Positions 53,289-54,405 of a stretch of 64,000 bases of DNA are shown in pieces; within the stretch, counting starts at the first letter, position 1, and every line of letters starts with the position of its first letter. Both the position numbers and the translations under genes were made by a program. The DNA comes from Candidatus Zixiibacteriota bacterium (GTDB lineage: Bacteria; Zixibacteria; MSB-5A5; UBA10806). Where the stretch lies: assembly GCA_024641335.1 (NCBI GenBank), contig JAHEDG010000013.1, forward strand, positions 1 through 64,000. The letters run 5' to 3'. The notes under the pieces are model-generated. The model searched no databases and had not been told where the DNA came from. It worked only from the letters and a program-made list of their open reading frames with translations.

Positions 53289-53295
53289 GAGTCAA

Positions 53296-53342
53296 TCATA
53301 TTCCATCTTTACAAACTTGGCAACCGGTTTTTATAAGATGGG
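53296..53342. repeat. About 47-bp direct repeat, left copy
   Basis: It begins TCATATTCCATCTTTACA and ends near CAACCGGTTTTTATAAGA. It matches 54271-54316 with a few differences. The two copies bracket the transposase element. Confidence 0.65.
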
Positions 53343-53443: not shown

Positions 53444-53620
53444 GTCGTCAGGTTCGGGGACCTGACGACACGTCGTTTACGGGTGCGCGGTCAAGTCTCT
53501 GTGTTCTCCAAGTGCGGTCAAGTCTCTGTGTTCTCCAAGTGCGGTCAAGTCTCTGTGTTCTCCAAGTGCGGTCAAGTCTCTGTGTTCTCCAAGTGCGGTC
53601 AAGTCCCCGCACTTGACCGC
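53444..53620. repeat. Left transposase-flanking array: hairpin plus four 27-bp units plus palindrome
   Basis: A hairpin (53444-53469) with arms GTCGTCAGG and CCTGACGAC is followed by a 17-bp spacer and four 27-bp tandem units (starts 53487, 53514, 53541, 53568) that begin GCGGTCAAGT. The array ends in a 26-bp palindrome (53595-53620) with arms GCGGTCAAGT and ACTTGACCGC. The stop codon of the transposase begins at the next base. It is identical to the right array except for unit number. Confidence 0.9.
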
Positions 53621-54109
53621 TTACCAAAGAGCCAATCGATCGATTTTGATAATTCCCTGTTTTCCGGTTTTATAATATTCCGCGCTGGAACATTCCCAAT
53701 CTTCCGGGTTTTCAACTAACCCCGCCTTCACCGGATTATTATGAATATAGTTCAACTTTACAGCAAAAGTTTTCTCCGAAATGATATAAAGATCATCGAA
53801 ACGATGTTGCCAAAACTTCTGAATTTTAACATTCCGACTGTTAAAATATTCAAACACTATTCTCTTTTTAAGATCCCTGACAAAGAAACTTATATTTTTT
53901 TCTTCCTGAATCGATACCAATAGATGCATATGGTTTGGCATTACAACATAGCCATGAACTTTCGCGTTATCTCTTATCCTGTAGAATTCCATATTTGTTA
54001 GAACGATTTCGTAATCCTCTTTTTTCTTAAAGCGGAGAACATGATTATAGGTGGAAGTGGTTATAAAAAAAGTACCGTGGTTTTGCAAACTTCTATACCT
54101 AAGAGGCAT
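53621..54109 (-). CDS. REP-associated tyrosine transposase (RAYT, Y1_Tnp / TnpA-REP)
   Basis: The 162-residue HUH-type protein starts PLRYRSLQNHGTFFITTST and has the HxH metal motif at His60-His62 (VMPNHMHLLVSI). The nucleophilic Tyr is at or near residue 121 (LNYIHNNPVKAGLVENPEDW), the standard C-terminal RAYT signature. RAYTs cut and rejoin single-stranded DNA at REP hairpins and are thought to spread them. Length and motifs are complete, so it may be active. It is flanked on both sides by hairpin arrays, as RAYT genes usually are. Confidence 0.95.
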   Translation of the reverse strand: MPLRYRSLQNHGTFFITTSTYNHVLRFKKKEDYEIVLTNMEFYRIRDNAKVHGYVVMPNHMHLLVSIQEEKNISFFVRDLKKRIVFEYFNSRNVKIQKFWQHRFDDLYIISEKTFAVKLNYIHNNPVKAGLVENPEDWECSSAEYYKTGKQGIIKIDRLALW

Positions 54110-54135
54110 TTTGTTACTCTAATTTCTCCATTAAT

Positions 54136-54258
54136 GTCGTCAGGTTCGGGGACCTGACGACACGTCGTTTACGGGTGCGCGGTCAAGTCTCTGTGTTCTC
54201 CAAGTGCGGTCAAGTCTCTGTGTTCTCCAAGTGCGGTCAAGTCCCCGCACTTGACCGC
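54136..54258. repeat. Right transposase-flanking array: hairpin plus two 27-bp units plus palindrome
   Basis: The hairpin (54136-54161), spacer, units (54179, 54206) and final palindrome (54233-54258) are the same as in the left array. The only difference is two units instead of four, a 54-bp contraction. Confidence 0.9.
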
Positions 54259-54270
54259 TGACCATAGCCA

Positions 54271-54316
54271 TCATATTCCATCTTTACATTTCCCGCAACC
54301 GGTTTTATAAGAGGGA
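54271..54316. repeat. About 47-bp direct repeat, right copy
   Basis: It begins TCATATTCCATCTTTACA and runs to ACCGGTTTTATAAGAG. It pairs with the copy at 53296-53342, outside the two arrays. Confidence 0.65.
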
Positions 54317-54405
54317 GGCAGTAGGTCGAAAGGCTTGTCCTTTCGACATTGATTGCCTTAAGTTGTCGAAGCCATAAAGGTTTTGACCTACATCTGGAGG
54401 AAACG

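Follow-up and report, generated by a model that had tools for sequence, protein, structure and literature searches.

We interpret the RAYT (REP-associated tyrosine transposase) locus in the window, the whole 64,000-nt stretch of a Candidatus Zixiibacteriota contig analysed here, as a probable REPtron: a RAYT between two inverted REPs in a short BIME-like array that inserted in a promoter region, where tandem half-REP units would have arisen by duplication from a hairpin apex followed by slippage. In REPtrons, inverted REPs stand on either side of a RAYT, in many cases as part of BIMEs, and BIME-type material on both sides was reported for a third of RAYTs (Nunvar 2010, PMC2817692). We class the locus as a REPtron/BIME of a known kind, with a recurrent half-REP variant for which our literature search found no description.

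The RAYT gene lies between two blocks of the same orientation. The left block (53444-53620), read directly, consists of GTCGTCAGGTTCGGGGACCTGACGAC-AC, GTCGTTTACGG and GTGC plus four GCGGTCAAGTCTCTGTGTTCTCCAAGT units, and ends in GCGGTCAAGTCCCCGCACTTGACCGC; the right block (54136-54258) has the same layout with two units. The blocks are direct copies, with shared stretches of 108 bp and 80 bp that are 100% identical, and differ in the count of the 27-bp unit, for which TRF gives copy numbers of 4.4 on the left and 2.4 on the right at a 100% match. Direct reading and TRF thus confirm the earlier note, which had described same-orientation arrays identical except for four versus two units, these numbers being as assembled, from identical short repeats in a 98-contig draft assembly. 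The likeness of the blocks stops directly beyond the hairpin bases, with GAA versus AAT before and TTACCA versus TGACCA after.

Two minus-strand hairpins bound the RAYT gene itself. The left-end (LE) REP, GTG-TCGTCAGGT-CCCCGA-ACCTGACGAC (54136..54163), precedes the RAYT start codon by 26 nt and was recognized by hairpin search and by its inverted pairing with the right-end (RE) REP, GCGGTCAAGT-GCGGGG-ACTTGACCGC-AC (53593..53620), which abuts the stop codon and was identified by direct reading, by this pairing and as a dispersed element in two relatives (G001 and G002). Second copies of both, also on the minus strand, form the outer edges of the blocks, that of the LE REP on the left (53444..53471; hairpin search and direct reading) and that of the RE REP on the right (54231..54258; pattern search and direct reading). 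Between the hairpins of the left block are four tandem half-REP units (53485..53592, minus strand; unit search, TRF and folding), which keep tag, arm and loop and have lost the second arm, and between those of the right block are two units of the same letters (54177..54230, minus strand; unit search and TRF). In both blocks an 11-bp linker, GTCGTTTACGG, separates the CAC and GTG tags (53472..53482 and 54164..54174; direct reading). Along the RAYT strand, the elements follow one another as RE hairpin, two half-units, linker, LE hairpin, RAYT, RE hairpin, four half-units, linker, LE hairpin, and the element proper is GTG-LE-RAYT-RE-CAC, its hairpins (53593-53620 and 54136-54163) being inverted with the tags outward. 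The earlier proposal that the arrays frame the RAYT is right in that direct blocks stand on both sides, but the framing elements are the inverted REPs, and the arrays are outward-facing, BIME-like junctions (RE hairpin, units, LE hairpin) outside them. Even when up to 3 mismatches were allowed, none of 100 shuffles matched the hairpin pattern by chance.

The RAYT ORF (53621..54109, minus strand; 162 aa) is intact. It matches NCBIfam NF047646 (E 1.3e-30, 106 bits against a cutoff of 80), Pfam Y1_Tnp and the solved structure of TnpArep, PDB 4er8 (E 2.7e-9); its fold is settled by the family assignment and this solved relative. In the alignment, H60 and H62 form the HUH motif and Y121, which aligns with Y115 of TnpArep 4ER8, is the putative catalytic Tyr; none of the three residues varies among the relatives aligned. 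The ORF accordingly has the attributes of the RAYT/TnpAREP group, namely a Y1 transposase domain, HUH, a single catalytic Tyr and a match to the RAYT family model, and these matches and the alignment bear out the earlier reading of a complete RAYT with HxH at 60-62 and a Tyr near 121. Equally, the stop codon (53621-53623, TTA on the plus strand) begins, as had been stated, at the base after the left palindrome.

Phased to the tag, the 27-bp unit reads GTG-CGGTCAAGT-CTCTGT-GTTCTCCAA, which keeps the tag, one arm and the loop of the RE hairpin and has other letters in place of the second arm. A complete natural variant of the hairpin, GTGCGGTCAAGTCTCCGTGTTTGACCGC, is present in G002 (L031, L162), and the unit matches it up to the lost arm. 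Judged by its letters, the unit represents one half of the RE REP hairpin in degenerate form, i.e., a half-REP. Two units by themselves gave no fold in the folding test, and Rfam has no match at the locus. No further copy of the unit was found in the host's own genome (3 mismatches allowed) or in eight relatives of the order, and exact matching across the GTDB species genomes, a collection that may omit the window's own record, found only this locus. The view that units inside such arrays are unusual is upheld.

The hairpins do occur elsewhere in the host, as a lone hairpin (C98:19506) and as decayed pairs (C40:27506, C55:24598), so that the earlier note's test, a search of the genome for other copies, came out positive for the hairpin and negative for the unit. 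The relatives G001, of a sister genus, and G002 carry dispersed GTG-hairpin-spacer-hairpin-CAC pairs with stems as at the locus (GTCGTCAGGT, GCGGTCAAGT), varying spacers and unrelated flanks, with up to 15 hairpin matches in G002; the RE hairpin pattern is found in 3 of 133 genomes of the phylum, all within the host's family. Paired inverted REPs at several sites, the mark of REPINs and BIMEs, are thus seen in these relatives and are decayed in the host. Because the host has very few cognate REPs, mostly decayed, in place of the abundance associated with a REPtron, its RAYT system may be inactive; REPtrons are also reported from species devoid of these repeats (PMC3733652).

The locus resembles REPtrons (PMC2817692) in its inverted REP-rayt-REP arrangement, in the BIME-type array on both sides and in that the array directly joins the 3' end of the rayt gene. 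Unlike REPtrons, whose hairpins are preceded by a GTAG/GTGG tag (usual, and degenerate in some families), the window has GTG followed by the stem (GTGT or GTGC); furthermore, its outer junctions bear half-REP tandem units and its host phylum is outside the gammaproteobacteria of that study. We propose that the locus would work like a REPtron and do not claim strict GTAG membership. Bertels and Rainey 2011 (PMC3116915) described REPINs, with tandem REPIN clusters including flanking sequence next to each RAYT; the paired inverted hairpins dispersed in the relatives and the tandem clusters with flanking sequence beside the RAYT are similar, whereas the REPIN tandem modules contain whole REPs, 112 and 72 bp apart with a next-neighbour peak at 184 bp, and the 27-bp period in the window contains half a REP. 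Tagged hairpins in HH/TT dimers, with flanking repeats that overlap the ends of the transposase gene, are likewise shared with the GTAG- and CGTC-tagged REPs and TIRtrons of Di Nocera 2013 (PMC3733652). The CGTC-REP superfamily (unpaired terminal CGTC, a loop of 4-5 nt, a CCA tail) was ruled out, as in the window CGTC is paired inside the stem, the loop is 6 nt and the tag is GTG. In sequence, the hairpins also recall TnpAREP groups 2 and 3 (Corneloup 2021, PMC8266576): they are perfect palindromes whose loops are conserved while the stems vary, as in the group for which the loop bases are decisive.

The insert separates a nitroreductase-like gene from the divergent gene for a 735-aa protein and lies in what is probably their promoter region. 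In G001, the same four neighbours are found in order, namely ORFs of 469 aa and 229 aa, the nitroreductase-like gene (76%) and the gene for the 735-aa protein (71%), with no RAYT and about 170 bp between the last two; the 469-aa ORF is, by eye, presumably a FAD-linked oxidase. A promoter-like motif, ATCATATTCCATCTTTACA...GTTTTATAA, is single at this empty site, and its first 19 bp are fully conserved. Comparison with the window places two copies on either side of the insert, one per divergent gene, at 53294..53342 (ATCATATTCCATCTTTACA...CAACCGGTTTTTATAAGA) and 54269..54317 (neither with an assigned strand), 84% identical over 37 bp. We infer that the G001 motif may serve as a divergent promoter; our promoter scan, a matching to consensus only, marks hexamers only on the nitroreductase side. 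The insertion may have brought a duplication of about 50 bp; alternatively, the locus had both copies beforehand and recombination removed the insert in G001. As the blocks are 100% identical, they look younger than the duplication of the motif. A flanking promoter duplication is not expected from IS200/IS605-type chemistry and counts against our explanation. The empty site in the sister genus provides a presence/absence record of such a RAYT locus at a defined place.

The inverted plan around the gene is found again at other RAYT loci of the phylum, as far as hairpin signatures reveal it. A profile of the window RAYT matched 115 of 131 genomes of the class, and flanks were read for 231 RAYT loci (about 230, a few being one locus fetched twice). 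Hairpins lie within 160 bp on both sides in 109 of the 231; the central bases of these pairs are reverse complementary (identity 0.80 versus 0.38 in shuffled pairs, with 80 of the 109 reaching at least 0.75), while their stems often differ by compensated changes, and GTG...CAC tags are frequent. Loop–loop 'kissing' of the paired hairpins, whose loops are complementary, was considered and dropped, since such complementarity follows anyway when two copies of one REP are inverted. At L042:1120-1720, a related RAYT with long-loop hairpins ends in AAAGTT in place of GTG, which suggests tag switching within a RAYT subfamily. At L093:2311-3236, REPINs on both sides of the RAYT element have inner sequences that repeat the element's own ends, as if they were internally deleted copies of it.

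TRF over the RAYT loci returned two kinds of array. Many are whole-REP arrays, on both sides of the gene in L122 and L148; in a Microscillaceae genome, a 29-bp whole-REP unit is repeated head to tail sixteen times directly upstream of the RAYT (L080:2002-2479). In the second kind, to which the array in the window belongs, half copies come after one complete hairpin. Such half-REP arrays occur at six other loci with unrelated hairpins (L099, L104, L265, L276, L293 and L131); in L099, for example, CGGCAGATGTGGACATTTGCCG-GGCAC is followed by AATTGGATATG-GTGGACATCTGCCG-GGCAC, after which comes a third half. The start of the repeated unit lies, at each of the seven loci, within the loop or on the first base of an arm. 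The automatic survey counted 5 half-array loci, the window included and L099 and L104 (found by eye and through TRF) left outside, against 0.25 expected with shuffled arms. The association with RAYT is suggestive only: half-arrays stand beside RAYTs at 5 of 185 loci and at 0 of 42 REPIN loci without RAYT, a small and partly redundant sample from this bacterial family, which is no significant excess (P = 0.59; tests of the link gave P = 0.33 and 0.59), and hence the RAYT itself may be irrelevant to the half-arrays.

There is roughly an even chance that the 27-bp units are an ordinary minisatellite, made by polymerase slippage at the hairpin with no role for the RAYT; hairpin-directed replication slippage would explain the units without it. 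One endpoint of each array is at a hairpin apex, a point at which a folded template may make synthesis pause, the direct repeat CAAGT-GCGGT-CAAGT is common to neighbouring units, and within a block the terminal arm can pair with the arm of an upstream unit; the insignificant association points the same way. Against this, none of the 42 dispersed REPIN loci shows half-arrays, with the caveat of sample size given above, and the arrays found directly adjoin RAYT-flanking hairpins. That the RAYT makes the units, by nicking beside the GTG tag and repeatedly rejoining at GTG to add or remove 27-bp steps, we consider possible and rather doubtful: every unit begins with tag plus arm, the ORF is intact, half-arrays recur in RAYT loci and TnpAREP enzymes cleave and rejoin REP DNA (PMC8266576), but the GTG junction is not diagnostic, because the phase of a tandem repeat is arbitrary, and there is no significant enrichment over RAYT-less REPINs. 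The earlier suggestion that the units are substrates or products of the transposase may hold. Very unlikely, finally, is a function of the units in regulating the RAYT or protecting its mRNA, whether as binding sites or as part of the transcript. Their identity within and between blocks and the placement of the RE hairpin at the stop codon and of the LE hairpin just upstream of the start speak for it; against it, recent duplication accounts for the identity, no relative searched conserves the unit, and Rfam gave no match.

For the REPtron with half-REP junctions that we favor, the RAYT probably binds GTG-tagged hairpins as folded single strands and probably cuts and rejoins beside them, by which REPINs, the GTG-hairpin-hairpin-CAC pairs, would spread within this bacterial family. 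Half-REPs would start when a segment reaching from the hairpin apex into the flanking DNA is duplicated in tandem, with synthesis stalled at the apex, possibly together with a RAYT nick, as the likely source; unit number would then shift by slippage between identical repeats, and the block could later be copied or homogenised across the RAYT. A broader conjecture, which we hold to be improbable, is that tandem half-REP arrays form a class of their own, produced by RAYTs or by replication stalling that RAYTs bring about at REP hairpins. One end of each duplication would be fixed at the apex, with tag and arm kept, and the spare arms would refold with the terminal hairpin into new REP variants. 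For the growth of REP arrays beside RAYT genes, the apex-bounded, one-arm signature at seven independent loci offers a testable footprint that can tell RAYT-made arrays from plain slippage, and these loci are candidates for counting units across strains.

A GTAG-tagged REPIN (GTAGGTCGAAAGG...GGTTTTGACCTAC) is also present in the window, at 54321-54391, 62 bp past the right block. Since a second RAYT element of this genome (C36:5569-6206) has matching ends, two REP families stand side by side.
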